NCBI RefSeq assembly: GCF_016124105.1
Contig: NZ_JADGMQ010000012.1
Coordinates: 62,001-126,000, forward strand
Length of the DNA: 64,000 bases
Direction of reading: 5' to 3'
DNA from: Aquamicrobium zhengzhouense
GTDB taxonomy: Bacteria; Pseudomonadota; Alphaproteobacteria; Rhizobiales; Rhizobiaceae
Shown here: positions 1 through 55,671 of the stretch, piece after piece
How the letters are laid out: every line of letters starts with the position of its first letter
Position numbering within the stretch: position 1 is the stretch's first letter
The notes under the pieces: generated by a model
What the model was told of the DNA's origin: nothing
Seen by the model: only the letters and a program-made list of their open reading frames with translations
The model's database searches: none
Program-made: the position numbers and the translations under genes

Positions 1-405
1 GCAGAATCCATCTGTTATGCGACCACGAACCGCCAGGAGGCCGTGAAGCAGGCTGCGCCGGGCACGGATCTGTTTCTGGTGGTCGGCGCGCCTAATTCAT
101 CGAATTCAAAGCGCCTCGTCGAGGTAGCCGAACGTTCAGGCGCGGCGCGCGGGTTGCTCGTTCAGCGCGCAGACGAAATTCCGTGGGATGAAATAGGCGA
201 CATCTCAGTTCTGGGACTGTCGGCTGGTGCGTCCGCACCCGAACTGATCGTCGATGAAATCATCGACGCCTTCCGCGCGCGCTTCGACGTTACCGTCGAA
301 CTGGCGATCACCGCGGAGGAAACTGAAAACTTCCCAGTCAACCGCGTGTTGCGCGACGTCGAACTGACGACCGCAGACATGGCATTCGTCAACGGAAACT
401 CCTGA
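1..405 (+). CDS. ispH: 4-hydroxy-3-methylbut-2-enyl diphosphate reductase, C-terminal part
   Basis: This is the 3' end of ispH; the frame is open from base 1, so the N-terminus lies outside the window. IspH is the [4Fe-4S] enzyme that makes IPP and DMAPP in the last step of the MEP isoprenoid pathway. The visible part opens with [12 protein letters not shown], a conserved stretch containing the last cluster cysteine, and contains the substrate-binding SSNSKRL and GLSAGASAP motifs. An internal GTG at base 43 is only a codon within the frame. The next gene, thrB, begins 4 bases after the stop, so the two are probably co-transcribed. Confidence 0.93.
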
Positions 406-409
406 CAAC

Positions 410-1378
410 ATGGCCGTCTACACTGATATCACCGAGCAGGAGCTTGGCGCGTTTCTGCGCGAGTATGACATTGGCGAACTGCTCTCCTACAAGGGGATTG
501 CCGAAGGGACCGAGAACTCAAACTTCCTCCTCCACACGACGACCACCTCGTTCATTCTGACCCTTTATGAAAAACGCGTTGATCCGGGTGATCTTCCGTT
601 CTTTCTCGGCTTGATGGAGCATCTCGCCAAGCGTGGGGTGACATGTCCGTTGCCGGTTGAGCGCAATGACGGCACTCTGATCGGCGAGGTTGCTGGACGC
701 CCTGCTGCAATCATCACTTTCCTTGAGGGGATGTGGCCGCGTCGTCCGACAGCGGTTCATTGCCGAGCCGTGGGCGAGGCGTTGGCGAAGTTGCACATAG
801 CCGGCGCTGACTTCGGCATGACACGGCCCAACGCGCTTTCGCTCGAGGGTTGGAAGACCTTATGGGCAGGCTGCCATGAGCGGGCCGATGAGGTCGAGCC
901 AGGACTGGTTGCCGAGGTAGAGGCAGATCTTTCAGCCATCAGCTCCGCGTGGCCGTCATCGCTGCCTGCCGGCGTCATCCACGCCGACCTCTTCCCGGAC
1001 AATGTCTTCTTCCTCGGCAACGAACTCTCGGGGCTGATCGACTTCTATTTCGCCTGTAACGATCTTCTCGTCTACGACGTCGCGACATGCCTCAACGCCT
1101 GGTGTTTTGAACGCGATCACGCTTTCAACATAACCAAGGCGACTGCTTTGCTCGCAGGCTATCAAAGTGTCCGTCCGCTGCAGCAGGAAGAGGTTGAGGC
1201 GCTGCCGCTTCTTTGCCGCGGCTCGGCACTTCGTTTCATGCTGACCCGCCTCTACGACTGGCTCAACGGCCCTGACGGGGCGATGGTGCAGAAGCGCGAT
1301 CCACTCGAATATGTGCGCAAGATGCGCTTTCATCGGCAGATCAGGTCGGCCAATGAATACGGTCTGGTTCAACAATGA
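410..1378 (+). CDS. thrB: Homoserine kinase (APH-fold type)
   Basis: Encodes 322 residues. It phosphorylates homoserine in threonine biosynthesis. It belongs to the aminoglycoside-phosphotransferase-like ThrB family usual in alphaproteobacteria, not the GHMP family of E. coli. The N-terminal [16 protein letters not shown] is typical of this family. The catalytic loop HADLFPDN and the metal-binding IDFYFACND follow in the second half. It starts 4 bases after ispH and its stop overlaps the ATG of rnhA by 4 bases, so the three genes form one unit. The partner gene thrC is about 7.5 kb away on the other strand. Confidence 0.93.
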
Positions 1379-29474: not shown

Positions 29475-30590
29475 TTAGCCGAGGAAGTCGTTGATCGTCT
29501 TGATGATCCGATCCTGATCCTCGGTCGAGAGATATGGGTGCATCGGCAGGCACAGGATGCGGGAAGGAAGTTCCTCGGAGATCTTCAACCCACCAGGCGC
29601 AGTCTGGTAGCGGTTGTAGGCAACCTGCTGATGCAGTGGCTTCACGTAATAGATCACTGACGGAATGCCCTGCTGGGCAAGGTGAGCCTTCAATTCGTCG
29701 CGGCGATCCGTCTCGATGGCGTACTGTGCCCAGGCTGAGCGGCTTCCGGCGGCAACTTCCGGGACCTTGGCCACGGAGCGCAGCCCGTCATTGTAGCGGC
29801 GTGCCACGACCTGGCGCTTTTCCATCTCGTCCTCGAGGATGGCGAGCTTCTCAATCAGGATTGCAGCCTGGATCGTATCGAGGCGCGAATTTACGCCCAC
29901 GCGGATGTTGTCGTACTGCGTTTCGCCCTTGCCATGGAAAGCAAGTGAGCGCAGCGTCTCGGCAATCTCATCGTCATCGGTGAACATCGCGCCGCCATCG
30001 CCGTAGCAGCCGAGAGGCTTGGCAGGGTAGAAGCTGGTCGATCCGATATGGCCAAAACTGCCGCACATTGCGTTGCCCAGCTTTCCACCGATCGACTGAG
30101 CGGCGTCTTCGATAACGACCAGATTGTACTTTTCCGCGACTGCCCTGATTGCGGTGTAGTCCGCGGGAAGGCCGAACAGGTCAACTGGGATAATGGCACG
30201 CGGAGTAAGGCGGCCCTCCGAGACAACCATTTCGATCGCAGCCTCAAGGCTCTTCACGTCGATGTTGTAGGTGTCCGGATCGATCTCGATGAAGACGGGT
30301 TCGGCCTGACGCAGTGCAATGACTTCGGCCGTTGCAGCGAATGTGAAGGAGGGACAGAACACTGCATCGCCCGGGCCAATATTGTGGGCCATGAGGGGCA
30401 GCATTAGCGCGTCGGTACCATTGGCGCAGCCGATCACATGCTTGACGCCGACATATTCCGCGAGCTTCTTTTCGAACTCGGCCACCTGAGGCCCGAGAAT
30501 ATAACGCCCATCAGCAACAACCGCTTCGATCGCTGCATTGAGCTTGTCGCTGATGCGCTCCCGCTGAGCGCCGAGGTCGATGAACTGCAT
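29475..30590 (-). CDS. DegT/DnrJ/EryC1 sugar aminotransferase (WbpE-like)
   Basis: Encodes 371 residues. PLP-dependent transaminase for nucleotide sugars. It has the PLP lysine in FYPAKPLGCYGDGGA, IEDAAQSIGG, and the N-terminal FIDLGAQRERI with ANGTDAL. Overall it resembles WbpE/WlbE, which aminate UDP-3-keto-GlcNAcA in lipopolysaccharide sugar synthesis (family memory, not aligned). Start at 30590 is preferred over the upstream frame because GGAAG sits near it. It is divergent from the GT25/ligase fusion, which suits cell-surface polysaccharide synthesis. Confidence 0.85.
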   Translation of the reverse strand: MQFIDLGAQRERISDKLNAAIEAVVADGRYILGPQVAEFEKKLAEYVGVKHVIGCANGTDALMLPLMAHNIGPGDAVFCPSFTFAATAEVIALRQAEPVFIEIDPDTYNIDVKSLEAAIEMVVSEGRLTPRAIIPVDLFGLPADYTAIRAVAEKYNLVVIEDAAQSIGGKLGNAMCGSFGHIGSTSFYPAKPLGCYGDGGAMFTDDDEIAETLRSLAFHGKGETQYDNIRVGVNSRLDTIQAAILIEKLAILEDEMEKRQVVARRYNDGLRSVAKVPEVAAGSRSAWAQYAIETDRRDELKAHLAQQGIPSVIYYVKPLHQQVAYNRYQTAPGGLKISEELPSRILCLPMHPYLSTEDQDRIIKTINDFLG

Positions 30591-30869
30591 GTTCTTCCGT
30601 TCTTCTTTGTGGTCGGGCAACACAACATGTACTGCCGCTCCCAATGGTGTTCCATTGCACCCAGCCCGGGCAGGCGAAAGATGCAGCGGTTCAATATCTG
30701 CTTCCCTAATTCATCAGGGAGTTTTTCCAAACAGGCACGGCGGCATGTGCACCATAAAATGGCGCTGAATATGGCATACAGCCTACCGCAGCCAAAGCGA
30801 ATGCCGTAGATGCTTAGAAAGTCGAATCGATTGACAGCTGGTGGCGCAAACGCGACTAGGGAGCCGCAA

Positions 30870-33041
30870 ATGACCCTTGAGAGGAGTTCAGCGTCTGCAA
30901 GTTCGAACATGTTGGGCAGCGACCAGTCAGTGACAAGAGATACCCGGATCGGAAAGGGTGACGCGCTGCGTGCCTATGTGATCAATCTGGCGAAGAACCC
31001 GCAGCGCTGGGAGGCAATTGCACGCTCGGCTGCCGATTTTGCTCCCGGGATCGAGCTCGTTCGTATCGATGCGGTGAATGGCCGCGCGCCGGAACATGCC
31101 GGACGCGAGGCGGCAGATGTGCCCACCTTTGAGCGGTTGAACGGCCGCGACATGCTGCCGGGCGAATATGGCTGCTACCTCAGCCATCTCGAAGCGCTTC
31201 GCCAGTTTTTGGATGATGGCAGCCAGTACGGACTGATCCTTGAAGATGACGTTGCTTTCGAGGAGGGGAGTGAAGCCCGGATACGCGCAATTATCAACGA
31301 GCTGCCGGCTTTTGGTGCCGTGAAGCTCGTGAATCATCGCGCCAAGTTCCTCGTAGAGCTTCTCAGCACCAGCGAGCATGACAGGATCGGGCGGACCGTC
31401 CACGGACCGCAGGGTTCGGCTGCAGCCTACCTCGTTACTCGCGAAGCTGCACAGCGATTGCTCGACGCGCTGAGCACAATGACGTTGCCATGGGACGTTG
31501 CGCTGGAAGGGGCATGGCACCACGGCACCGAGATTTTCAGTGTCGAGAAAAACGTCCTTGCTTTCACGGAAGAGCGCGAGAAGTCGGACATTAGCGGTGG
31601 CGGGTACGCAAAGGCCAAATATCCCTGGTACCAACGCTTCGGTGCGGCTTCCGCACGATCGCGAGATTATCGCCGGCGGATCGGCTATGCATTCACGCGA
31701 CCGGATCATGCCGGGGTCGCCCAAGCCGAGCCTTTACCGTGGCAGCAGATGGCGGCGGGCATTCTCTTTCTCGCCTTCATCTCTGCGGTGTGGCTTGAAT
31801 CAGATGCTTACAGGATTTCGGGCGGACTGCTGATCCTCGCGGCACTCTGGCGCTATTACAGCAAGGACATCTGGGATTATCGACGTCTTCCCGAAATCGG
31901 CTGGATGGGGCGCTTCTGTCTTCTTTGGGGGGCGTATGTCCTCATTCGGTTCGGGATCAGCCTGAGCACGGAGCCGGACAAGGGGATAGGCTCTTCAGAA
32001 GGCATCTATCTGCTGCCTGCACTGTACCCGACGCTGGGCTATGCGATGTATCTTTTCGTCCGCAGGCCCTTCCTCATTGCCTCGATATTCATGGTGGTCA
32101 GCCTCGCTGCGTTGGGCTTCGGCATCGACTATCTGGGACCGGAAATACGTGCGCGTGCGCGCCTCCAGAACAACCCGATCCATGCGTCCGTTGCGGTAGG
32201 GCTGATTTGCCTGTGCGCGGTTCCTTACGCAGTGCACGCCCTTCGCCGGCGCGATCTGGGGATGGCGCTGAGGGGGACACTCGCAGCGCTGTCCCTGTTG
32301 GTTTTCATCCTTTCGGGCATCGCGATCTATAATCTTTGGTCGAAGGGCGTCTGGCTGGCGATGATCGTCGCGCTGCCCGTTCTGCTGATGACGATGATTG
32401 CGGCAGGGAGCCGAACCGGGAAACAGATCGCAGTGGCCGCTGCGCTGATTGCGCTCGCAGGTGTGGTCCTGAACTATCAGACATTGGTGCAAGTAGCGGG
32501 AGGAACCGTCGGGACCACCGCACTCCTTCTTGCAGAACTCCAGCAAGGCAATTCGGCGACGGATACCCTTCGCGTGCTTATTTCTGATCCATCGACGCAG
32601 GCCAGCGAGATGGAGAGAATGAAGATCTGGTACAACGCTCTCAGCTTGTGGGGCGAGAACCCGCTGTTAGGCGCTGGCGTGGGTTGGCTGAGCCGCTGGA
32701 GCCTGCAACTCTACGCCACGCCCTACAACCTTCTGCACAACGGTTATCTGGAAGTCGCCGTGCGCTACGGCTGGACGGGGCTGGCATTCTACGGCGTGTT
32801 GTTCGGCTGGACGGTGATTACCGTCTACAAGGCCGCACGACTGCGGCTCATCGACGTTTCAGCGCTTCAGGCTTATGTCGCGACGCTGATGTTTTTCGCG
32901 GTGACTCTCGTAAGCAATTCCAACATCAGGTTGGCAATTGGCGAGACGTATATGTGGTTTGCCGCAGGGTTCGCGTTCTATTGCCACTTCTTGCTTGTCG
33001 AACAAAAGAGGCGGGAAGCTGCCTCTCTTCACACTCGCTGA
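30870..33041 (+). CDS. Fusion: glycosyltransferase family 25 + O-antigen ligase/polymerase
   Basis: Encodes 723 residues. Residues about 30-235 are a cytoplasmic GT25 (LPS glycosyltransferase) domain: AYVINLAKNPQRWE, the YGCYLSHLEAL motif and acidic LILEDDV with E125-D127. From about 290 the chain has 10-12 hydrophobic helices with Wzy_C/WaaL hallmarks: LWSKGVWLAMIVALP, then NPLLGAGVGW followed by LLHNGYLEVAVRYGWTGLAFY in the large periplasmic loop. The ATG at 30870 has AGGGAG 6 bases upstream. Such a transferase-ligase fusion is unusual. It may link sugar addition with polymer transfer at the inner membrane (inference). Confidence 0.85.
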   Translation: MTLERSSASASSNMLGSDQSVTRDTRIGKGDALRAYVINLAKNPQRWEAIARSAADFAPGIELVRIDAVNGRAPEHAGREAADVPTFERLNGRDMLPGEYGCYLSHLEALRQFLDDGSQYGLILEDDVAFEEGSEARIRAIINELPAFGAVKLVNHRAKFLVELLSTSEHDRIGRTVHGPQGSAAAYLVTREAAQRLLDALSTMTLPWDVALEGAWHHGTEIFSVEKNVLAFTEEREKSDISGGGYAKAKYPWYQRFGAASARSRDYRRRIGYAFTRPDHAGVAQAEPLPWQQMAAGILFLAFISAVWLESDAYRISGGLLILAALWRYYSKDIWDYRRLPEIGWMGRFCLLWGAYVLIRFGISLSTEPDKGIGSSEGIYLLPALYPTLGYAMYLFVRRPFLIASIFMVVSLAALGFGIDYLGPEIRARARLQNNPIHASVAVGLICLCAVPYAVHALRRRDLGMALRGTLAALSLLVFILSGIAIYNLWSKGVWLAMIVALPVLLMTMIAAGSRTGKQIAVAAALIALAGVVLNYQTLVQVAGGTVGTTALLLAELQQGNSATDTLRVLISDPSTQASEMERMKIWYNALSLWGENPLLGAGVGWLSRWSLQLYATPYNLLHNGYLEVAVRYGWTGLAFYGVLFGWTVITVYKAARLRLIDVSALQAYVATLMFFAVTLVSNSNIRLAIGETYMWFAAGFAFYCHFLLVEQKRREAASLHTR

Positions 33042-33142: not shown

Positions 33143-34357
33143 CTAGGCGGTTACCGCGCTCAGCGTTTTCCTGACGTCGAAATGGTGCTCGGCAAGTACA
33201 TGGTACGGGGTGCCAATAAGACGCCGTGCGGCCATGTGGACGCCGGCTGCGTTGACTGTTTCAACTGCGATGAGAGTATCGTTGTTGAACGCAAGTACCA
33301 CAGGTTCGCCTGCAGGCGTTGTTGTCTGCTCGTGACGGTCGGCACCTGCGCCAATCCCTACGATCTGCAGCTTGATCTTGCCCTGGTCGCTCCAGAACCA
33401 CGGCAGCGCGGAGTAGGGTGCGTCTTCCCCCTTTGCGAGGCGGCGGGCGATATGGCGCGCGTGGTCGACGGCGGCCTGCACCGACTCCAGTCGCACCGTG
33501 CCATTATCCGGCAGCGGAAAGCGCGCGCAGTCACCGAGCGCTGAGATTGCAGGATCGGACGTGAGCAGGCGACCGTCGACGATGACACCGTCGTTGCAGC
33601 TAAGCCCTGCCTGCTCGGCCAATTCCACGGAAGGGCGCACACCTGCCGCGACGAGGACAAGGCTTCCGTCGATCACGGTGCCGTCGTTTAGGATCACACC
33701 GTCTGCTTCACCTGCGTCGTCAAGACGAACAGAGGAAGCTGCAGTGCCTAGAATGATCTTCGTTCCCTGCGAGCGGTGAAGGTCCAGGAACCATCGCGAC
33801 ATTGCTGGCGAGATCGCGCGCGCCATCAGGCGAGGTCCAGCTTCAACGACGGCTACTTCGACGCCGGCGTCCCGTGCCATTGCAGCGAATTCGAGGCCGA
33901 TGAAGCCGCCACCAATGACGACGGCACGCTTGGTCGAAGCCATTTTGTTACGAAGAGCTGTTGCGTCCTCAAGTGTGCGCAGCTGGAAGACGCCCGGCGC
34001 ATTGATCCCCGCAATTGGCGGGGCCCAGTTGGCGGCGCCGGTGGCGAGGATCAGATGCGCGTAGGTGATGTTCTCCCCATTTGAGAGCGTGACGCTTTTT
34101 CTCTCGCGATCGATCTGTGTGACACGCACGCCATCGCGATAATCGATTTCAGAACGTTCGAAAAACGAGGTGGGACGCAAGATCAGGCGATCCGCTATCC
34201 CGTCAGCCATGTAGGCCTTCGACAGGGGCGGGCGCTGATAGGGCAGGCCGGGCTCTTCACCGATAAGCGTTATATTGCCGGTGAGACCATCCTGGCGTAG
34301 CGACATCGCAGCCTGCATCCCGCCCTGTCCGGCACCGACGATGACGATGCGTTCCAT
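33143..34357 (-). CDS. Ferredoxin reductase (putidaredoxin-reductase type, FAD)
   Basis: Encodes 404 residues. N-terminal FAD Rossmann motif IVIVGAGQGGMQAA, NAD(P)-binding VVIGGGFIGLEFAAMARD and the second FAD motif AISALGDCARF. The C-terminal domain contains WFWSDQGKIKLQIVG, as in putidaredoxin, rhodocoxin and palustrisredoxin reductases. It passes electrons from NADH to the [2Fe-2S] ferredoxin encoded 10 bases upstream, and so to the P450. It is the last gene of the P450 operon. The start at 34357 (MERIVIVG) is canonical. Confidence 0.92.
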   Translation of the reverse strand: MERIVIVGAGQGGMQAAMSLRQDGLTGNITLIGEEPGLPYQRPPLSKAYMADGIADRLILRPTSFFERSEIDYRDGVRVTQIDRERKSVTLSNGENITYAHLILATGAANWAPPIAGINAPGVFQLRTLEDATALRNKMASTKRAVVIGGGFIGLEFAAMARDAGVEVAVVEAGPRLMARAISPAMSRWFLDLHRSQGTKIILGTAASSVRLDDAGEADGVILNDGTVIDGSLVLVAAGVRPSVELAEQAGLSCNDGVIVDGRLLTSDPAISALGDCARFPLPDNGTVRLESVQAAVDHARHIARRLAKGEDAPYSALPWFWSDQGKIKLQIVGIGAGADRHEQTTTPAGEPVVLAFNNDTLIAVETVNAAGVHMAARRLIGTPYHVLAEHHFDVRKTLSAVTA

Positions 34358-34367
34358 CCGGGCTGCC

Positions 34368-34688
34368 TCAGATCTGAGTTTCGGGCAGACGCACGACGAT
34401 GCCGTCAAGCTCTGCGTTCATCTTGACCTGGCACGACAGGCGGCTTTGGGGGCGAACCTCGGATGTCGCGCTCTCGAGCATGTCCTCTTCGCCGTCATTG
34501 CGCGGGCCTGCAGCCTCAAGCCACGCATCATCAATGTAGCAATGGCATGTGGCGCACATCATGGAGCCGCCGCATTCACCAACAATGCCGTTAACGTCAT
34601 TGGTGATGGCAGCCTGCATCAGGCTTTCGCCCTCGTCGACTTCGACCTGCGTGGTGGTGCCGTCAAAGGCAATGAAGGTTGCATTCAT
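34368..34688 (-). CDS. [2Fe-2S] ferredoxin, putidaredoxin type
   Basis: Encodes 106 residues, exactly the length class of putidaredoxin. The cluster ligands are C39, C45, C48 and C86 (C-X5-C-X2-C-X37-C), the same numbering as in putidaredoxin. It also has the family ending (VRLPETQI). It should shuttle single electrons from the reductase encoded next to it to the CYP199-like P450 encoded 3 kb upstream in the same operon. Confidence 0.95.
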   Translation of the reverse strand: MNATFIAFDGTTTQVEVDEGESLMQAAITNDVNGIVGECGGSMMCATCHCYIDDAWLEAAGPRNDGEEDMLESATSEVRPQSRLSCQVKMNAELDGIVVRLPETQI

Positions 34689-34739
34689 GTCTTTACCTCA
34701 AATTGTGGACCCGCCCGGCAAAGCCACGCGGGGAATGCG

Positions 34740-36056
34740 TCAGCGCATGAGTTCAGGCAGGAACAGGGTGATCTGCGGGTAGATGATCAGGAGCGCCATC
34801 ACGAAGACTTCAGCTAGCAGGAACCAGCCGACACCGCGGTAGATCGTCCAGATCGGGACCTTGTCTCCGACGACCGATTTCACGACGAAGACATTCATGC
34901 CGAGCGGCGGTGTGATCATTCCGATCTCGACATATTTCACGACGATGATGCCGAACCAGATGAGGTCCAGGCCGAGCGCCTTAATCATCGGCAGGAACAC
35001 CGGCATCGTGATCAGCATGATGCCGAGCGGATCCAGGAACATGCCGAGGATCAGGTAGATCGCCGAGATTGCGAGAATGACCAGGATCGGATCGCCTGCG
35101 AAACCGGACATCATGTCGGCTAGAAGACCGGAAACGCCGGTCAGCGACAGAAGGCGCGTGTACATGACGGCGCCCATGCCGACGAAGAAGATCTGAGCCG
35201 TCGCGGACATCGACTCCTTGAGGGAGGCTGCGACGCCTTCCATGTTGATACGGCCCTGTAGGACAGCGATCAGGAGCGCGAGTGCGGCACCGACCGCACC
35301 GGCTTCGGTCGGAGTAACGATGCCGCTGTAGAGGCCGCCCACGACGCCACCGATCAGTGCGATGACTGGCCAGATCTCTCGCAACGAGCGCATGCGCTCG
35401 GCCTTGAGGGTCTGCAATTCGTTGTCGTCGAGACGCGGGGCAAGTTGTGGGTTCATCCAGCAACGGATCAGAATAAGCATCGTGTAGGCGAGGCCAGTCA
35501 GAAGCCCCGGAATCACGCCGGCAACCAGCAGGCGGGAAATGGAAACTTCCGCGAAGACACCGTAAAGGACCAGCAGGATCGACGGTGGGATGACAGCCGC
35601 CAAAGTACCTGCGGATGCGACAACACCGGTCGCCAGTGCGCGGTCGTATCCGGCGCGAAGCATTTCAGGGATCGCGAGGCGTCCCATTGCCGCGGCGGAT
35701 GCGAGCGAGGAGCCACATGCGGCAGCGAAGCCGACAGAGGCCATATTCGCAGCGACCGCCAGGCCGCCAGGGAGTGCCGAGAACCATAGTCGTGCTGCAC
35801 GAAAGAGAGCGGTCGAAATGCCTGAATGGTTCGCGATGGCACCCATCAGCAGAAACATCGGGATCGCGGTCAGGTCCCAATTTGCTGCGAAGGTGAACGG
35901 GGTTTCGCGCAGGATCGACCATGCAACGTTAAAGTTGCGCACATAGGCTAGGCCGAGAACCGACACCACACCAAGCGCAACGCCAATTGGCACGCGCAGG
36001 GCAATCAGCCCGAGGATGATGCCGAGTGTGGTGAGACCGAAAGTGAGAGCATCCAT
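34740..36056 (-). CDS. TRAP transporter large permease (DctM-like)
   Basis: Encodes 438 residues with about 12 membrane helices. DctM hallmarks: ALRVPIGVALG at the start, PEMLRAGYDRALATGVVASAGTLAAVIPPS and the EAGAVGAALALLIAVLQG segment. It is the ion-coupled channel subunit of a tripartite carboxylate importer. The ATG at 36056 overlaps the last base of the small-subunit stop (TAATG), so the two are coupled; the upstream in-frame extension is not used. Confidence 0.92.
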   Translation of the reverse strand: MDALTFGLTTLGIILGLIALRVPIGVALGVVSVLGLAYVRNFNVAWSILRETPFTFAANWDLTAIPMFLLMGAIANHSGISTALFRAARLWFSALPGGLAVAANMASVGFAAACGSSLASAAAMGRLAIPEMLRAGYDRALATGVVASAGTLAAVIPPSILLVLYGVFAEVSISRLLVAGVIPGLLTGLAYTMLILIRCWMNPQLAPRLDDNELQTLKAERMRSLREIWPVIALIGGVVGGLYSGIVTPTEAGAVGAALALLIAVLQGRINMEGVAASLKESMSATAQIFFVGMGAVMYTRLLSLTGVSGLLADMMSGFAGDPILVILAISAIYLILGMFLDPLGIMLITMPVFLPMIKALGLDLIWFGIIVVKYVEIGMITPPLGMNVFVVKSVVGDKVPIWTIYRGVGWFLLAEVFVMALLIIYPQITLFLPELMR

Positions 36057-36568
36057 TATTTTGCCTCCCCGGTTTCGATCTTGTGGCCGGTAAGGCGCGC
36101 AAGGAGGCGGAAGATCATGACAAGCGCCATGGCGCCACCTGCTACGGGCAGGAACCAGCGCGTTGGCCAGACCGGCAGGTAACCGCCGATGATTTCCCAC
36201 ACCTCACCGCGACGTGTGCGAGCAAGGGCGGACAGGGTGCTCTGCCAGACAAAGGCGCTGACATAGATGATGACGAGGACGTCAACGAGGACGGCGATGA
36301 CGTGGCGAAGTGGCCCGGGCAGGCTTCCGATGAAAATATCGGCCGTTACGTGTTCGTCGCGTAACGTGACCCATGCCAAGGGAAGGAAGGCCAGCGCGAT
36401 CATGTAGTAGGTCGCGGTGATCTCGCCGGTGCCGGGCAGCGGGTAATTTAGGAATGTGCGCGACGCGACGTCTACGGTCACGTGCAGCATCATGAGCGCA
36501 CCTGCAGCCAACGCGACATAAAACAGTGCGTTGGAAAGCAGGTTCGCGAGCGCGTTGATCTTTTTCAT
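36056..36568 (-). CDS. TRAP transporter small permease (DctQ-like)
   Basis: Encodes 170 residues with four hydrophobic helices. The family features are YPLPGTGEITATYYMIALAFLPLAWVTLRDEHVTADIF and the C-terminal WFLPVAGGAMALVMIFRLLARLTGH. It pairs with the large permease encoded immediately downstream. A strong hairpin separates it from the receptor gene upstream. Confidence 0.92.
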   Translation of the reverse strand: MKKINALANLLSNALFYVALAAGALMMLHVTVDVASRTFLNYPLPGTGEITATYYMIALAFLPLAWVTLRDEHVTADIFIGSLPGPLRHVIAVLVDVLVIIYVSAFVWQSTLSALARTRRGEVWEIIGGYLPVWPTRWFLPVAGGAMALVMIFRLLARLTGHKIETGEAK

Positions 36569-36604
36569 CGACGATTTCTCGCTGACTCTTTGGCTTTTAC
36601 AAAA

Positions 36605-36632
36605 AGGAGGCGCCCATTTGCGGGCGCCTCCT
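36605..36632 (-). terminator. Hairpin with T-tract between TRAP receptor and permease genes
   Basis: Perfect 11-bp inverted repeat (36605-36615 with 36622-36632). Read on the minus strand it is followed by TTTTT, the form of an intrinsic terminator. Placed between the receptor and permease genes, it probably causes partial termination, or protects the receptor mRNA, so that the binding protein is made in excess (inference). Confidence 0.65.
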
Positions 36633-36652
36633 AGCCTTGGGAGGTTAAGGGA

Positions 36653-37756
36653 TTAGAGCGAGGACGCGTCTACCTTGGAGAAGACTTCGGTCCAGAGACG
36701 CTCGGAGAATGCGTCGACGTCGTTACCGATTTCGGCCGCGATCGGCTTCCACTTCTCGATTGCAGCGAAGTAATTGTCGATCAACGTTGCCGGGTCGGCA
36801 ACACCCAGTTGCTCTCCTGCCTTGATCAGGCGTTCACGATCGGTCGCCGCGAAACCTTCAACGAGGGCGCGCAGGTCATCAGCCGGTGCGACCAGTTCCA
36901 CACCGTTCTCGGCAACCTGGTTCTGGAAGCTTTCTTCGTCGCGCAGAACGTAGTTGCTGATGGTGTGGCGCGCAGTGATCCGGGCCGAAGCGCGCATCGC
37001 AGCGATCTGCTCTTCCTCGGACATTTCGGTGAACACGTCGCGATTCAGCAGGAAGCCGAGCGCCGGAGCCGAGTTGCCGAGCGGCAGGTCGGTTACGAAT
37101 TTGGCGTACTCGCCATAGCCATAGGTTTGCAGCCACTCACGCGTTGCCATCAGGCAGTCGAGGCCGCCCTTCTGCAGCAAACCGACCGTGTCTGTGAGGG
37201 TGGTGGACGTCGGGGTTGCACCAGACATCGTTGCCATCTCAGCGAAGCCGCCAGTTGCACGGACGCGCTTTCCGTTGAGGTCGGCCATGCTGGAGATCGC
37301 GCTGGTGCACATCAGGCGATAGGACGCCGATGCAAAGCCACCGAACGGGACGACATTGTTGTCCTTGGATTCTTCAATGCAGGACGGGCAGTTGAGGAAT
37401 ACGGTTTCCGCCGCAGCGGCAGCAACCGCGACCGTGTTATCGCCCGGCACGACAATCGAGTATAGCAGTGTCAGGGACGGCATCGCATCCGGGTTGTAAA
37501 CCGGGATCTGCAAGCCAGCCTGCATCAAGCCATCTGCAACTGCGGAAAGAGTGCCACGACCATCAGCCAGCTGGCCGCCAGAAATCAGCTCCCACTTGGT
37601 CCCTACCTCTTTCTCGATCTGCTCGAAGGCTTCCGGCAGTGCGTCGGTGTTGAGGTAGTCGGAAGCCGGGGGCCAGGAACCGTAAATCGGGTTCTGTGCA
37701 ACGGCAGCAGTGGTCATGAGCGCTAGCGCTCCGGCACCTAGAATAGACAGTTTCAT
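36653..37756 (-). CDS. TRAP transporter periplasmic substrate-binding protein (DctP-like)
   Basis: Encodes 367 residues. Signal peptide MKLSILGAGALALMTTAAVAQ, then a DctP-type solute-binding fold with GGQLADGRGTLSAVADGLMQAGL, DLNGKRVRATGG and a run around GLDCLMATREWLQTYGYGEYAKFVTDLPLG. Two cysteines in LNCPSC and one in LMCTS could form disulfides. The ligand is probably an organic acid; from context perhaps an aromatic carboxylate. It follows the P450 gene by 54 bases. Confidence 0.9.
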   Translation of the reverse strand: MKLSILGAGALALMTTAAVAQNPIYGSWPPASDYLNTDALPEAFEQIEKEVGTKWELISGGQLADGRGTLSAVADGLMQAGLQIPVYNPDAMPSLTLLYSIVVPGDNTVAVAAAAAETVFLNCPSCIEESKDNNVVPFGGFASASYRLMCTSAISSMADLNGKRVRATGGFAEMATMSGATPTSTTLTDTVGLLQKGGLDCLMATREWLQTYGYGEYAKFVTDLPLGNSAPALGFLLNRDVFTEMSEEEQIAAMRASARITARHTISNYVLRDEESFQNQVAENGVELVAPADDLRALVEGFAATDRERLIKAGEQLGVADPATLIDNYFAAIEKWKPIAAEIGNDVDAFSERLWTEVFSKVDASSL

Positions 37757-37810
37757 CAGAAAAATATTCCTCCACGGAAATACGCACCGAGGCGCGTTGA
37801 GGTTTGGGCC

Positions 37811-39019
37811 TTATGCAGGCGTCACTTCTACGGGAATGGAGTGGTATCCCCGCAGCCAGTTGATGTAGACGCGCTCGGGCGCGCCGGTGAGTTCGATCCG
37901 CTTGACCTTGCGAGCCAGCGCGGTGAGCACGGACTCCGCCTCGAGGCGAGCGACCATCTGGCCGACACAGGCGTGGATGCCAGTACCGAAGGCGAGGTGC
38001 CCCACGGTCTTTCGGTTGAGGTCGAAGTCGTCAGGACGCTCCCAGCGCTGAGGATCGCGGTTGGCGGATGCCAGCCACATCAGCACCTTTTCCTCCGCTC
38101 CCAGCGCAACGCCGGCAAGCTCCGTTGCTTCACGCGTGGTCCTGCCAATAACCGGGCTCGGTGCCATGAAGCGCAGACCTTCGTCGAATGCCTGCCGGGC
38201 CATGGATGGATTGGCGTGGAGGAGGTCCCACTGCTCCGGTCGCTCTATCAGCGCCATCAATGTGTTGCCAATGCCGAAGACGGTTGTGTCGATGCCAGCC
38301 GAGATGAAGGCGCGCACGAGCATGCCCGCATCCTCATGGCTGATTTCGCCCGAATGTGCTGCCGCGTAGATTTCGGTGCCGAATCCGCCTTCGATGAGGT
38401 TCTCCTCGGCCATCTGCGCTGCAACGTATTCGAAGGTGCCTTGCTCTTCGACGATCTTGCGCGCCGCGAGGTACCGCTCGTTCTTCGGGCCCATCGCGTT
38501 GAAGTTGAGTTCCGAGTACGGCATCAGATGATGGCGGCCTTCAGGGCGCAATCCGACTGCTTCTGGCAGAACCTTGAACGGAAATGCGAATGCAAGGTCG
38601 GCACCAAGATCAAAACGGCGCTGCTCGATCAGGCGATCAACCATTTCCTCCGCGACGCCCCGGAAATACGCCGCCAGCTTGCGCATCGCACCTGCCGACA
38701 AGATACGCGCCAGGACGCGGCGGTTCGGCGTGTGAACGGGGGGGTCGGCCTCCAGGATGACCGAGGGCTTCCGCCACGGCTCATCGCGTACCACATTGGT
38801 CAGGCCGGTCCCGTAGGCCGAAGAGAAGCGCTGCCAGTCGTTGAAAATCTCGCGAATGATCGCGTCACGACCAGAGATCCAAAACCCGTATTTGGGCACC
38901 CAAACAACATCGCCGGCCTCACGAATGGCGCGGTCAAGTTCGATCGGGTTGTCGACGGCCTCGTCGCTGAACGGATCAATGTCCAGCGTAGGCCTGTCGT
39001 TGAGAATGTCTTTCTGCAT
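37811..39019 (-). CDS. Cytochrome P450, CYP199-like
   Basis: Encodes 402 residues. The heme-thiolate motif FGTGIHACVGQ carries C351, and the I-helix has AGIDTT (241-246) after R236 and S240. From memory it resembles Rhodopseudomonas CYP199A proteins: PWRKPSVILEADPP, GGFGTEI, and the ending LRGYHSIPVEVTPA. Residues R83 and S86 correspond to the Arg/Ser pair that holds the benzoate carboxylate in CYP199A4. A para-substituted aromatic acid is therefore a reasonable substrate guess. The start at 39019 has GGAGGA upstream; the frame upstream to 39307 is not conserved. Confidence 0.92.
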   Translation of the reverse strand: MQKDILNDRPTLDIDPFSDEAVDNPIELDRAIREAGDVVWVPKYGFWISGRDAIIREIFNDWQRFSSAYGTGLTNVVRDEPWRKPSVILEADPPVHTPNRRVLARILSAGAMRKLAAYFRGVAEEMVDRLIEQRRFDLGADLAFAFPFKVLPEAVGLRPEGRHHLMPYSELNFNAMGPKNERYLAARKIVEEQGTFEYVAAQMAEENLIEGGFGTEIYAAAHSGEISHEDAGMLVRAFISAGIDTTVFGIGNTLMALIERPEQWDLLHANPSMARQAFDEGLRFMAPSPVIGRTTREATELAGVALGAEEKVLMWLASANRDPQRWERPDDFDLNRKTVGHLAFGTGIHACVGQMVARLEAESVLTALARKVKRIELTGAPERVYINWLRGYHSIPVEVTPA

Positions 39020-46664: not shown

Positions 46665-49130
46665 TTGGATAAGACTTCTTCTCCGGCAGTTGAGGCTGCT
46701 CCCCGCCAGTTTGTCGTCAGCGACCTCGCAGACGAACTGATTGAATGTCTGAAATATCGAGTCGGCAAGGAGCCCTCGGTCGCAACGCGGCACGACTGGC
46801 TGTCGGCGGCCATCAAGGTGGTTCGGGATCGGCTGATCGATCGATGGATCGAGTCAACGCGAAGGGCCTATGAGAATGGCGACAAGCGCGTCTACTATCT
46901 GTCGATGGAGTTCCTGATCGGTCGGCTGATGCGCGACGCCTTCTCGAACCTCGGCATGATGGAAGACATGCGCGAAGCGCTCGCCGCTCATGATGTCGAT
47001 ATCGATCTGATCGCGGCTCTGGAGCCTGATGCGGCGCTGGGAAATGGCGGACTTGGACGCCTTGCCGCCTGCTTCATGGAATCGATGGCGAGCCTTGATA
47101 TCCCCGCACATGGATATGGCATTCGGTACGTCCATGGCCTTTTCCGTCAGGAGATCCATGATGGTTATCAGGTTGAGCTTCCGGAGACCTGGCTCGATCA
47201 CGGAAACCCCTGGGAGTTCGAGCGGCGCGAAGGGGCGTATGAAATCGGATTCGGCGGCAGCGTGAGGTCAGTTGCTTCTCAGGAGGGAAGGGGCGAGCGC
47301 CAGATATGGAAGCCTACGGAACGTTTTCTCGCAGTGCCATTCGACACCCCGATAGCTGGCTGGCGCGGAAAGCGGGTGAACAGCCTGCGCCTGTGGTCGG
47401 CAATGCCGGTAGACCCGATCCTGCTGGATGCGTTCAACGCGGGCGACCACATTGGCGCCTTGAGGGAAAGCAACAAGGCGGAGGCTCTGACGCGGGTGCT
47501 GTATCCGGCCGACAGCCATCCGGCGGGACAGGAATTGAGGCTGCGACAAGAGTACTTTTTCTCGGCAGCCTCCGTTCAGGACATCGTGCGCCGGCACCTG
47601 TCGAAATATCCTGATCTTCATTCACTTCCCGATAAGGTCACGATCCACCTGAACGACACGCATCCGGCGATTGCCGTGGCGGAATTGATGCGGCTCTTGA
47701 TGGATGTTCATGGCCATGGCTTCGACAGCGCATGGGCCATTGCCAAACAGACCTTTGCCTACACCAACCACACATTGCTGCCGGAGGCACTGGAAAGCTG
47801 GCCCGTCCCGCTTTTCGAGCGGCTGTTGCCCCGGCACATGCAGATCATCTACGCCATCAATGCCGAGGTGCTGCTTGAGGTGCGATCCTCCGGCCGCTTC
47901 AACGATGACGAAATCCGCGAGATTTCACTGATTTACGAAGGCGGCGAGCGGCGGGTCCGCATGGGAAATCTTGCATTCGTGGGGGCTTTTTCGGTCAACG
48001 GCGTATCTGCTCTCCACACGGATCTGATGAAGCAGACGGTGTTTTCCGACCTGCACAAGCTGTATCCGGATAGGATCAACAACAAGACCAACGGCATCAC
48101 CCAGCGCCGCTGGCTGTTTCAGTGTAATCCGAGGCTGACGACGCTGATCCGCGACACTATCGGGGATCGCTTCCTTGATGACATCGAGGCGCTGAGCGAA
48201 CTCGATGCGTATGCTGAAGATCATGAATTTCAGCAACAATTCTCGGCGGTGAAGCGGGCAAACAAGGAGCAGCTGGTGAAAGTGGTCAGCGAGCGTCTGG
48301 GGGTACGCTTGGATCCCACAGCCTTGTTCGACGTTCAGATCAAACGCATTCATGAGTATAAGCGGCAGCTGCTTAACATCATCGAAGCGGTATCGCTTTA
48401 TGACCAGATAAGGTCTCACCCCGAAAGGGACTGGCTGCCCCGCGTAAAGTTCTTCGCCGGCAAGGCGGCCCCGAGCTATCACAATGCAAAGCTCATCATC
48501 AAATTGGCCAATGACGTTGCGCGGGTGATCAACAGCGACCCCTCGGTTCGAGGGCTGCTGAAGGTGGTGTTCATTCCGAACTACAATGTCTCGACTGCTG
48601 AGATCATGATCCCGGCGGCGGACCTTTCGGAGCAGATTTCCACCGCAGGACTGGAAGCTTCCGGCACCGGAAACATGAAATTTGCGTTGAACGGCGCGCT
48701 GACCATCGGGACGCTGGATGGCGCGAATGTCGAGCTAAGGGAGCATGTGGGTGATGAGAACATCGTCATCTTCGGCCTGACCGCGCAGGAGGTGGCCCAG
48801 TGGAAGGCACAGGATTATCGACCCGGCGAGATCATAGAACGTTCTGCCGAATTGAAGCAGGCTTTGGAGGCGATCGGCACGGGTGTGTTCTCGCCTGACG
48901 ATCCGGGTCGGTACGGGGAGTTGATCTCCGGCATTTACAAGCAAGACACGTTCATGGTTGCAGCCGATTTCGACGCGTATTCGTCTGCGCAGCGTCACGT
49001 GGATGAACTTTGGCGTACCCCGGCGCGTTGGCATCGAATGGCGATCCACAACACGGCGCGGGTGGGCTGGTTTTCTTCTGATCGCACCATCCGCCAATAT
49101 GCGAGCGAGATCTGGCGCGTCCCCGTATGA
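46665..49130 (+). CDS. glgP: Glycogen phosphorylase
   Basis: Encodes 821 residues, full length for the GT35 family. It releases glucose-1-phosphate from glycogen. It contains [17 protein letters not shown] near the N-terminus, HLNDTHPA, and the PLP lysine motif [27 protein letters not shown]. The likely start is TTG at 46665 with AAAGGA about 8 bases before; the nearby ATG at 46659 runs into a stop. It is the first gene of the glycogen operon. Confidence 0.95.
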
Positions 49131-51307
49131 AACCAGAGAGCACACAGAGTTCGAGAACGGCGCAGGCGGACATCGATGCCATCATGAAGGGTGCTCATCG
49201 CGATCCCTTCTCCGTTCTGGGACTGCAATCCGCTGGAAATGCCTTCATCGCGCGCTGCTTCATTCCGCATGCTGATGAGGTGGCGGCCTTCACCCTCGGT
49301 GGGGAGGAATGTGGCGCATTGGAACGGCGGGATGAACGCGGATTCTTTGAAGGTCCGCTCACGATCTCCAGCCGACAAGCTGTTCGTTATCGCGCGCGAA
49401 ATGCCGGCGGCGAATGGTGGGTCGGCGACCCGTATTCCTTCGGGCCGGTCTTAGGGCCGATGGACGATTATTACATCGGCGAAGGCTCGCATCTGCGGCT
49501 CTTCGACAAGTTGGGCGGCCACCCCTTGCATCATGAAGGCGCAGATGGCGTTCATTTCGCTGTCTGGGCACCTAATGCAAGGCGCGTTTCGGTCGTCGGA
49601 CAATTCAACGATTGGGACGGTCGACGTCATCCCATGCGCAAGCGCATCGACACCGGGATCTGGGAGATTTTCATCCCCGATGTCGCCATCGGTTGCATCT
49701 ACAAATACGAGATCTTGGGTGCCGGCGGTGAGGTCTTGCCACTGAAGGCTGACCCGTTCGCGTTCCGGGCGGAATTTCGTCCGGCTACTGGTTCAGTCGT
49801 GGATGGGAAGCCCGACCATGAGTGGGGCGACGAAGCGCATCGCGAGTTCTGGAAGTCTGCAGATCCGCGCCGTCAGCCGATTTCGATCTACGAAGTTCAT
49901 GCCGGGTCATGGCGCAAGCCAGAGGATGGCTCCTTCCTGACCTGGGACGAGTTGGCAGATCAATTGATCCCCTACGTCGTCAGCATGGGCTTCACACATA
50001 TCGAGTTCCTGCCGATCAGCGAACATCCTTACGACCCTTCTTGGGGTTACCAGACGACCGGGCTTTTCGCCCCATCGGCGAGGTTCGGTGAGCCGGAGGG
50101 TTTCGCGCGCTTTGTCGACGGTGCCCACCGCGCGGGGATCGGGGTTATCCTCGACTGGGTGCCCGCGCATTTCCCAATGGATGCGCATGGCCTCGCCATG
50201 TTCGACGGGACCGCGCTTTACGAACATGCGGATCCGCGAAAGGGGTTTCACCCGGATTGGCACACGGCAATCTACAATTTCGGTCGCCGCGAAGTGATGG
50301 CGTACCTCGTCAACAACGCCATCTACTGGGCCGAGACGTTCCACGTCGACGGACTGCGGGTGGATGCGGTGGCTTCCATGCTCTACCTCGATTATTCGCG
50401 AAAGGCAGGCGAGTGGATACCCAACGAGCACGGCGGGCGGGAAAACCTCGATGCAGTTGCCTTCCTGCGCAAGATGAACGCGGAAGTTTACCGCGCACAT
50501 CCGGGCATCGTGACCATCGCGGAAGAATCGACGTCATGGCCGAAAGTTTCCCATCCGGTTCACGAAGGCGGGCTGGGCTTTGGCTTCAAATGGAACATGG
50601 GTTTCATGAACGACACGCTGCGTTACATGAGCCACGAGGCCGTGCACCGGAAGCACCATCACCGCGATATCACCTTCGGGCTTCTCTACGCATTCTCTGA
50701 AAATTTCGTGCTGCCTCTCAGCCATGACGAGGTGGTGCATGGCAAGCGCTCGTTGATTAACAAGATGTCGGGCGATGAGTGGCAGCGCTTTGCCAACCTA
50801 CGCGCCTACTACGCTTTCATGTGGGGCTACCCCGGAAAGAAGCTGTTGTTCATGGGCCAGGAATTTGCCCAGCTACGTGAATGGAGTGAAGAGCGCGGAC
50901 TCGACTGGCAGTTGCTGGAGCAGCCGGCGCATGATGGGGTGCGGCGCCTGGTTCAAGATCTCAATCGTATCTACCGGGATATTCCGGCGCTTCATGCACG
51001 AGATTGCGAGGGAGAGGGATTCCGTTGGCTGATTGCTGACGATGACGAGCATTCCGTGTTCGCCTGGGAGCGTCGCGCACCGAACGAACCCAGCGTCGTC
51101 GTGATCAGCAACTTTACGCCGTGTCCACGCGAGAATTATGTCGTGCCTATGCCCCAAGACGGGACCTGGCGCGAAGCAATTAATACCGATGCTGATTTTT
51201 ACGGGGGAAGTGGAAAGGGGAACGGAGGTAAGGTGGTCGCTGAAGGAGGGAACGCCAAGCTGTTCCTGCCGCCGCTAGCTACCCTTATTCTCGAATATAT
51301 GGGTTGA
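49127..51307 (+). CDS. glgB: 1,4-alpha-glucan branching enzyme
   Basis: Encodes 726 residues. A GH13 enzyme forming alpha-1,6 branches. An N-terminal CBM48-like module is followed by the catalytic barrel with [25 protein letters not shown] (nucleophile Asp), TIAEEST (acid Glu) and [12 protein letters not shown] (transition-state Asp), then an all-beta C-domain. The ATG overlaps the glgP stop by 4 bases. Confidence 0.96.
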
Positions 51308-51329
51308 ACGCCCGGTGGAGGGACTGCTG

Positions 51330-52589
51330 ATGGACAAGAGGCCTCAGCCATTGGCGCGAGACGCCATGGCCTACGTGCTCGCGGGTGGTCGAGGTAGCCG
51401 CCTCGCGGAACTGACGGACGTTCGCGCAAAGCCTGCTGTCTATTTCGGCGGCAAAACCCGCATCATTGATTTCGCGCTGTCCAACGCCTTGAACTCTGGC
51501 ATACGCCGTATTGGTGTTGCGACACAGTATAAGGCCCATTCTTTGATCAGGCACTTGCAGCGCGGATGGAATTTCTTCCGGACCGAGCGCAACGAAAGTT
51601 TCGACATTCTGCCGGCAAGCCAGCGGGTCTCGGAGACGCAATGGTATGAAGGCACCGCTGATGCGGTCTTTCAGAACATCGATATCATCGAGGACTACGG
51701 TGTCGAATACATGGTCATCCTCGCCGGTGATCACATCTACAAGATGGACTATGAGCTGATGCTGCGTCAGCACGTCAACGCCAATGCCGACGTCACCATA
51801 GGGTGTCTGGAAGTCCCTCGCGCGGAGGCAACCGGTTTCGGCGTCATGCATGTCGACGCGAACGATCGCGTCCTTCAGTTCGTGGAGAAGCCTGCAGATC
51901 CACCAGGAATGCCGGACAAGCCTGAGATGGCACTGGCTTCGATGGGCATCTATGTTTTCCGCACCTCCTTCCTGATGGATCAGCTGCGCCGCGATGCGCA
52001 TGATCCGCAATCGAGCCGAGATTTCGGCAAGGACATCATCCCCTATGTTGTGAAGCATGGAAAAGCAGTTGCCCATCGCTTCACTACCTCATGTGTGCGC
52101 TCCAGTCTGGAAACAGAGGCCTATTGGCGAGATGTGGGCACGATTGATGCCTATTGGGCTGCCAATATCGATTTGACAGATGTGACACCCGAACTTGATA
52201 TTTACGATCGCGACTGGCCGGTCTGGTCCTATGCGGAGGTCAAACCGCCTGCGAAATTCGTTCACGACGAAGACGGACGACGTGGGACCGCCGTATCCTC
52301 CTTGATCGCGGGCGACTGCATCATCTCCGGAGCAGCCTTGAAGAGGAGCCTTCTGTTCACCGGTGTGCGGGTAAATTCCTTTTCATCACTGGAAGATGCC
52401 GTCGTGCTTCCGGGCTGTGTCATCGGCCGTAACGCGACGCTGCAAAAGGTTGTCCTCGACCGCGGGGTACGGATTCCGGAAGGGCTTTCCGTGGGATTTG
52501 ACGATGAACTGGACAAGAAGCGCTTTCGTGTATCAGAAGGCGGGGTGCGCCTCATCACGCAGGCAATGATAGACAGGCTGGGCAATTAA
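51330..52589 (+). CDS. glgC: Glucose-1-phosphate adenylyltransferase
   Basis: Encodes 419 residues. It makes ADP-glucose, the regulated step of glycogen synthesis. The N-terminus has [21 protein letters not shown] and [18 protein letters not shown]. The substrate site includes [10 protein letters not shown]. The C-terminal left-handed beta-helix carries [27 protein letters not shown] 51330 is chosen over an upstream in-frame GTG because GGAGGG lies at 51317-51322, about 7 bases before it. Confidence 0.96.
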
Positions 52590-52593
52590 CCAG

Positions 52594-54039
52594 ATGCAGG
52601 TTCTTTCGGTTGCGTCCGAAATGTTCCCCTTCATCAAGACAGGGGGCCTGGCAGACGTCACAGGAGCGTTGCCTCACGCGCTCGCGTCGCATGGAATTTT
52701 CGTGCGCAGCATGCTTCCCTGTTATCCGGCACTGAAAAGCAGATTGTCCGCAAAGAGCTCGATCGCACACCGGTACAACGATCTGTTCGGTGGTCCTGCG
52801 AGTATCATCGAAGCTCAGATAGAAGGGCATCACCTCCTCCTTCTGGACGCGCCGCATCTGTTTGAACGCGCTGGTGGCGCGTATGGGGACGATGGCGGCG
52901 GAGATTGGGCGGATAATTGGGCGCGGTTTGCAGCATTTGCGCGCGCTGCTGCGGACGTTGCTGCGGGTGAGATCAAGGGTTGGAAGCCGGATGTCGTTCA
53001 CGCACATGATTGGCAGGCCGCGATGACCCTTGCCTACATGCGCTATGATGAGCGACCGGCGGCGCCCTCCGTGATGACGGTGCACAACCTTGCGTTTCAG
53101 GGCCGCTTCCCGGCGGGGATCTTCCCTCAGCTGAAGTTGCCGCCAGAGGCGATGGCGATCGATGGCGTCGAATATTTTGGCGGGGTCGGTTATCTCAAGG
53201 CCGGTCTTCAGGCCGCGTCCGTCATCACTTCCGTCAGCCCAACCTATGTGCAGGAAATTCGGACGCCCGAGTTCGGCATGGGGTTGGATGGTCTGCTCAA
53301 CGGGCGGGAGAACGATCTTTTCGGGATCCTCAACGGCATCGACACGAGTGATTGGGATCCGGAGACGGACCGCCATCTTGCTGCAACCTACTCGGCCCGG
53401 ACGTTGCAGCGCCGTGCCGCGAACCGTAGGGTGCTCTTGGATCGTTTTCAACTCGATGATGATGGCTCGCCGCTTCTGTGCGTGATCTCTCGCCTTACCT
53501 GGCAGAAGGGGATGGATATCCTCGCGGCAGAAATTGCAAGGATTGTTGGGCTGGGAGCCCAGCTCGCAGTGCTGGGCTCGGGTGACAGCGCGCTGGAAGG
53601 CGCGTTCATTGCTGCTGCCTCGCGCCATCATGGCCGCGTTGGCGTGGTGACCGGCTATGACGAGGCGCTGGCTCATCTTCTGCAAGGTGGGGCTGATGCC
53701 ATCCTGATCCCATCACGTTTCGAGCCTTGCGGCCTGACGCAGCTTTACGGGTTGCGCTATGGCTGCATCCCGATGGTGTCGCGCACGGGCGGTCTGGCCG
53801 ATACCATCATCGATGCAAATCACGCTGCGTTGTCCGCTGGCGTCGCGACGGGTTTTCAGTTTAACCCGGGCTCGGGCGACGCGATCGTGGAAGCCGTCCA
53901 TCGGCTTATCGCGGTTCATCGCAATCGCAGCGCATGGACCAGCCTGCAAAGGCAAGCGATGAAAACCGACGTTTCATGGAATGCGAGCGCGAGCGAGTAC
54001 GCTCAGCTTTTTCGCTCATTGGTCTCGTCAGGAGAGTAA
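52594..54039 (+). CDS. glgA: Glycogen synthase (ADP-glucose)
   Basis: Encodes 481 residues of the GT5 family. It has the N-terminal KTGGLADVTGALP ADP-glucose site, HAHDWQAAMT, and the C-terminal SRFEPCGLTQLYGLRYG with the retaining-GT glutamate. It extends alpha-1,4 glucan chains. It begins 4 bases after glgC. Confidence 0.96.
   Translation: MQVLSVASEMFPFIKTGGLADVTGALPHALASHGIFVRSMLPCYPALKSRLSAKSSIAHRYNDLFGGPASIIEAQIEGHHLLLLDAPHLFERAGGAYGDDGGGDWADNWARFAAFARAAADVAAGEIKGWKPDVVHAHDWQAAMTLAYMRYDERPAAPSVMTVHNLAFQGRFPAGIFPQLKLPPEAMAIDGVEYFGGVGYLKAGLQAASVITSVSPTYVQEIRTPEFGMGLDGLLNGRENDLFGILNGIDTSDWDPETDRHLAATYSARTLQRRAANRRVLLDRFQLDDDGSPLLCVISRLTWQKGMDILAAEIARIVGLGAQLAVLGSGDSALEGAFIAAASRHHGRVGVVTGYDEALAHLLQGGADAILIPSRFEPCGLTQLYGLRYGCIPMVSRTGGLADTIIDANHAALSAGVATGFQFNPGSGDAIVEAVHRLIAVHRNRSAWTSLQRQAMKTDVSWNASASEYAQLFRSLVSSGE

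Positions 54040-55670
<1,631 letters not shown>

Positions 55671-55671
<1 letters not shown>

Follow-up and report, generated by a model that had tools for sequence, protein, structure and literature searches.

What does a reading frame encode that joins a sugar transferase to a membrane protein resembling an O-antigen ligase, and how did its two halves come together? The question is raised by a 723-residue frame at 30870..33041 (+) of the window, the 64,000-nucleotide stretch of DNA analysed here, in which a family 25 glycosyltransferase (GT25) domain is followed by a Wzy_C domain. The gene very probably encodes a WadA-type bifunctional inner-membrane enzyme, composed of a GT25 core transferase and a WaaL-like O-antigen ligase, an assignment drawing on the frame itself, Pfam matches, a homologue in Aminobacter sp. 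J41, conserved residues, a structure model and published work (PMC9938171, PMC10920833). Its two-part architecture is already known from Brucella WadA, and the window protein is another such protein.

An intact frame that recurs in related genomes

The single 723-residue frame described in the earlier note is real: its translation has zero internal stops, and Aminobacter sp. J41 (G200:C38, locus L095) carries the same fusion at 69% identity over residues 28–719, again with no stop. The longest mechanical ORF starts 60 bases upstream, at 30810 (743 residues); the motif AGGGAG lies just 5' of the ATG at 30870, and the gene-caller start of the J41 protein aligns at this same ATG. Codon comparison with J41 gave pN 0.16 and pS 0.66 for the GT25 part, and pN 0.20 and pS 0.67 for the ligase part; both parts look to be under purifying selection between the window species and J41. 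Around the in-frame linker (residues ~277–289, 31698..31736, +), which is poorly conserved in this comparison, identity is 31% over residues 271–296 and pN is close to pS, the frame being kept but not the sequence.

The genus grouping used here places the window genome with Aminobacter sp. J41, and these two are the only ones of the eight genomes searched in the genus with a fused frame, so that even here the fusion is far from general. In a third (G098) GT25 is a separate gene, with a Wzy_C gene from another branch convergent to it, and the remaining five gave no match at E ≤ 0.001. At the G098 locus (L037:5842-10532) two genes precede that of GT25, one for a 448-residue protein whose TPR matches are weak and below the Pfam cut-off, the other for a 354-residue protein with no Pfam match. 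Across a family sample of 394 genomes, 99 had a match at E ≤ 1e-30 and eight contained nine unbroken fused frames (G000, G200, G353 with two, G382, G222, G275, G208 and G215), while in G263, G273 and G220 a single alignment runs through one TGA. The order sample (397 genomes) added one more fused genome, G691, all eight matching genomes lying within the same family, and the class sample (385 genomes) gave no match except in the window's own genome.

A contig scan with the window protein alone found no relative; queried with nine aligned fused proteins, it gave 188 confirmed matches, of which the best 80 were kept and classed using a ligase threshold of 90 bits and a pair distance within 3 kb. 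These best 80 of 188 comprise 25 fused genes, 23 split adjacent pairs with GT25 followed by the ligase, one pair in reverse order, one on opposite strands, and 30 loci with GT25 only, a class in which a divergent ligase may be missed at 90 bits and 3 kb. Mesorhizobium accounts for 20 of the 25 fused genes (two from one genome), Hoeflea for two, and Oricola, Aminobacter and one other for one each. Split pairs of the same set, in which both protein families adjoin but as two polypeptides, occur for example in Nitratireductor, Fulvimarina, Aurantimonas, Aquamicrobium, Rhizobium, Pseudorhizobium, Shinella and Mesorhizobium xinjiangense. The fusions of Mesorhizobium, Hoeflea and Oricola share with the window protein a single-frame architecture, 38–43% identity and the invariant residues discussed below; as for neighbours, 12 of the 26 fused loci have ppdK within 6.5 kb and 10 have smc, but the window and J41 are not among them.

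A sequencing or assembly error joining two neighbouring genes might produce such a frame, and the split relatives lend this some substance. Among the 23 split pairs (best 80 of 188 matches), two have a 4-base overlap of stop over ATG, measured to the earliest possible start (Fulvimarina L122, Rhizobium daejeonense L139), and another four share one frame across a gap of 3–21 bases (L099, L118, L119, L128), so that a small change could fuse the two. As an account of the window frame, however, this is refuted by the independent fused genomes, one of them at 69% identity, with fused genes in four named genera, and the GT25 tree, in which the fused proteins group as a single clade (SH-aLRT 97), also speaks against it, leaving it a vanishingly small probability. 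The frameshift or assembly join raised earlier as a doubt is thus ruled out by J41 and by the fused genes of Mesorhizobium, Hoeflea and Oricola. The novelty then implied for the fusion is not supported, since the WadA architecture has already been characterised and described in several genera (PMC9938171, PMC10920833); what may be new here is the census of paired genes.

Domains, predicted fold and likeness to WadA

Both domains score above their Pfam cut-offs in the one frame, in agreement with the first reading: Glyco_transf_25 (PF01755) at residues 35–210 with 65.1 bits (cut-off 24), and Wzy_C (PF04932) at residues 477–641 with 43 bits (cut-off 31.7). The GT25 domain, of GT-A fold, spans residues ~34–276 (30969..31697, +) and is expected on the cytoplasmic face. 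The LILEDDV motif noticed in it at the outset is present, and its E125-D126-D127-V128 (EDD at 125–127) are invariant in all nine aligned fused proteins, window included. The O-antigen ligase (Wzy_C/GT121-type) membrane domain follows at residues 290–723 (31737..33038, +), with R583, H623 and R632 invariant in 9/9 fused proteins and in all 25 ligase halves aligned, whether from fused or split genes. A long loop (559–624) contains the first two of these, and R632 lies just beyond it.

An AlphaFold2 model based on an alignment of 42 sequences has a mean pLDDT of 90.1 and a pTM of 0.89. In a refined structural comparison re-examining the best Foldseek chains (998 aligned), this whole model matched WaaL (7tpg_B) at first rank (Z 22.9, rmsd 4.7, 376 residues aligned, model 289..711), and also human GLT25D1/COLGALT1 (9evj_A; Z 20.2, rmsd 3.0, 209 aligned, model 29..246). 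In a plain Foldseek search with the whole model the 50 rows listed are mostly matches to the GT25 half and do not include WaaL; modelled by itself, the ligase half (pLDDT 90.8) found 7tpg_B as its sole match at E ≤ 0.001 (2.3e-6; TM 0.57 and 0.61). No PDB chain was matched by the ligase half in sequence searches, either with a single sequence or with a 25-sequence profile. The likeness to WaaL (7TPG) lies in the predicted fold of residues 289–711 and in a conserved histidine at the end of the long loop, whereas WaaL stands alone as a protein (its chain has 403 residues) and shows 14% identity in the structural alignment. From the model we infer a topology with the N-terminus inside and the ligase site in the periplasm, which the helices and long loop 559–624 fit; the helix pair 515–534/536–558 makes the modelled helix count 12 or 13, and loop K and R counts agree only loosely with an inside N-terminus.

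WaaL has two diphosphate-binding arginines, R191 and R265, and an acceptor-activating histidine, H313, according to the 2024 CAZy paper (PMC10920833). In the window protein the invariant R583 is a candidate for the second diphosphate arginine, and an SKGVW motif has a lysine where the first might be expected. Mesorhizobium sp. IRAMC:0171 has two fused paralogues (L117 and L123), of which L117 (the same as L060) is divergent, with SRSAW replacing SKGVW.

The closest known system is Brucella WadA (BAB1_0639). According to its published description, WadA attaches the terminal glucose of the core through a cytoplasmic glycosyltransferase domain (1–266) and ligates O-antigen in the periplasm through a ligase domain (267–703) with 12 transmembrane segments (PMC9938171). 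The same paper reports that WadA lacking most of the main periplasmic loop results in rough LPS, that the ligase domain complements, that R614A leaves very little smooth LPS, and that a B. abortus WaaL homologue exists but is not the main ligase (PMC9938171). In the CAZy paper WadA is GT25 joined to GT121, found in five genera including Mesorhizobium (PMC10920833), and the KdoII–glucose linkage, gene numbers and wadA primers were taken from two further papers (PMC6171495, PMC4107470).

The comparison with WadA uses these reported domain limits, residues and primers in place of an end-to-end alignment. The order of the domains is the same, the parts are of similar length and the membrane half is WaaL-like in both. 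Matched by position rather than by full alignment, WadA H605 and R614 correspond to H623 and R632 with an offset of 18 and the same nine-residue spacing; a WadA primer at about codon 680 reads AFGFAFY, and the window protein has AAGFAFY at 698, an offset again of 18. Near the EDD motif the offset, reckoned from amplicon sizes, is about 32, and its change to 18 further on suggests that the window protein has a longer N-terminus and a shorter linker than WadA. The genes also differ in composition: wadA, with 51% G+C in a 58% genome, is reported as probably acquired (PMC9938171), whereas the window gene (59.0%) matches its surroundings (59.3% for the window).

Among 35 genomes of the genus with an aminotransferase 96% identical to 4qgr, which we take to be a Brucella abortus structure, GT25 was found in 34, in frames of 194–365 residues; none is fused, since such frames are too short for a ligase, and these 35 probably do not include genomes carrying the published WadA. 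In the literature, Servais 2023 was the only report found on a bifunctional O-antigen ligase; searches for a glycosyltransferase family 25–O-antigen ligase fusion described as such, and for family 25 enzymes in the Rhizobium lipopolysaccharide core, found nothing, and one for wadA in Aminobacter nothing related, judging by titles. With the window protein, the bifunctional WadA class gains a member in an Aminobacter-group genome, although Aminobacter is possibly already among the five genera of PMC10920833.

Proposed function and genome setting

By analogy with WadA, the GT25 domain would add a terminal sugar (glucose in Brucella) to lipid A-core on the cytoplasmic side, MsbA would flip the core across the membrane after this addition, and the WaaL-like domain would join undecaprenyl-diphosphate-linked O-antigen to the GT25-added sugar in the periplasm, where H623 would activate the acceptor and arginines close to it would hold the diphosphate. 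The earlier note had a single protein adding the last sugar and then transferring or polymerising the glycan; the first course, sugar addition then transfer, is the WadA mechanism (PMC9938171), while the polymerase option is less likely.

An O-antigen-like polysaccharide cluster of the ABC-exporter type lies elsewhere in the genome (L180, G000:C23:140000-158000) and, judging by its genes, would be a donor supply for an O-antigen ligase. The scan, covering seven of the 13 frames of the stretch, found an ABC2 membrane protein, a Wzt_C ATPase and dTDP-rhamnose-type (rml-type) genes; a further protein of the cluster, 1363 residues long, combines methyltransferase, GT2, GT4 and RgpF domains. O-antigen of the ABC-exporter type as a rule needs no Wzy polymerase, and a whole-genome Wzy_C search gave no match on contig C23 at E ≤ 0.001.

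PF04932 is common to ligases and polymerases, and the C-terminal half might accordingly be a polymerase (Wzy or ExoQ-like) or a capsule or exopolysaccharide ligase, with the GT25 half adding a sugar to a lipid-linked repeat unit. As such a role would have it, several relatives adjoin genes that belong to surface-polysaccharide clusters, of the PF02397 (sugar-transferase) and Polysacc_synt_2 types (neighbour clusters c7 and c11, each judged from a scan of one representative). We nevertheless consider this improbable: a polymerase is less likely than a ligase because WaaL is the sole significant Foldseek match and the O-antigen-like cluster is of the ABC-exporter type, and the WadA counterparts of H623 and R632 are linked to ligase activity. 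Three other Wzy_C proteins are encoded in the genome, one adjoining a PF02397 sugar transferase and GT4, one adjoining GT2, and one below the Pfam cut-off; given these proteins, and given that the B. abortus WaaL homologue is not the main ligase, the fold alone cannot single out the ligase.

Protein O-oligosaccharyltransferases of the PglL/TfpM type have the Wzy_C fold too, and a role of the ligase half in O-linked protein glycosylation would agree with TfpM being the best, and only, ligase-like NCBIfam match of the fused protein. The score of this match is negligible, however (17.3 bits against a cut-off of 600, in a scan with nothing near any cut-off), and the related WadA acts on LPS, making protein glycosylation a highly improbable function. 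If the protein is instead the WadA-type core transferase and O-antigen ligase that we favour, its two functions are predicted to be matched to each other.

History of the two halves and neighbouring genes

The fusion would have arisen from an older adjacent gene pair, GT25 then ligase, and its likely origin is a co-directional pair of the kind still adjoining in many relatives. Trees of the two halves were built from 71 rows, namely the window, 50 named loci with both domains and 22 extra loci, with two duplicates dropped. In the GT25 tree the fused proteins require one change, whereas the ligase tree needs two, five unfused relatives falling among the fused rows: Aquamicrobium LC103, a Phyllobacteriaceae MAG and three loci with opposite genes. 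The trees, both of them 'quick' searches with several long branches, would fit a single fusion, perhaps followed by one split, and would also fit two fusions. The Phyllobacteriaceae MAG (bin61, L099) has its split pair in one frame, with 21 bases from stop to start, beside or among the fused rows, and is possibly a fused gene split again.

At the three opposite-gene loci the halves do not share one common history, since the GT25 tree places their GT25s at a distance from the fused clade. In six loci (L037, L054 and L090–L093) the ligases next to GT25 lie behind a very long branch of 4.9 changes per column, but their GT25 partners are much closer to other GT25s: those of L054, L090, L092 and L093 form a neighbouring clade, that of L091 stands alone and that of L037 is nested among split rows. 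Ligase partners thus appear to have been exchanged in GT25 pairs. We tentatively propose, as a reading a shade short of probable, that a matched GT25–ligase pair is conserved across Rhizobiaceae-type bacteria; that its ligase was replaced at least once by a deep-branch member, with a GT25 of the same family being retained; and that the pair was welded once or twice in the Mesorhizobium–Aminobacter–Hoeflea–Oricola group, with perhaps one re-split. If true, this would mean that the GT25 writes the acceptor sugar that is read by its own partner ligase.

The neighbouring gene (29475..30644, −) encodes a divergent DegT/WbpE-like sugar aminotransferase (PF01041; 613 bits to 4qgr, 345 bits to WbpE), and both in the window and in J41 the fused gene is divergent from it. 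It had been put forward as support for a surface-glycan role, support that now appears weak: an orthologue (≥50% identity) lies within 6.5 kb of GT25 in five of the 51 loci with both domains, window included, and strong 4qgr matches occur in 37 of 116 genomes, from 36 of 109 family genera, including genomes of 1.1–1.5 Mb. Two further loci (L074, L076) have a member of the aminotransferase cluster close by. With linkage in 5/51 loci, a part for the aminotransferase in the fused-gene system is not supported; its breadth across genera, even in such small genomes, suggests that it may be a lipid A or core sugar gene.

Elsewhere in the window, positions 46665-57509 hold a glycogen-type run comprising a phosphorylase, a branching enzyme, a starch-type synthase, a phosphoglucomutase and a CBM48 amylase-family protein. 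The block at 33143-39019 (−) includes a cytochrome P450 (PF00067) together with a ferredoxin reductase, a ferredoxin and a TRAP transporter, the last three named by reading their translations, and is possibly an uptake-and-oxidation unit.
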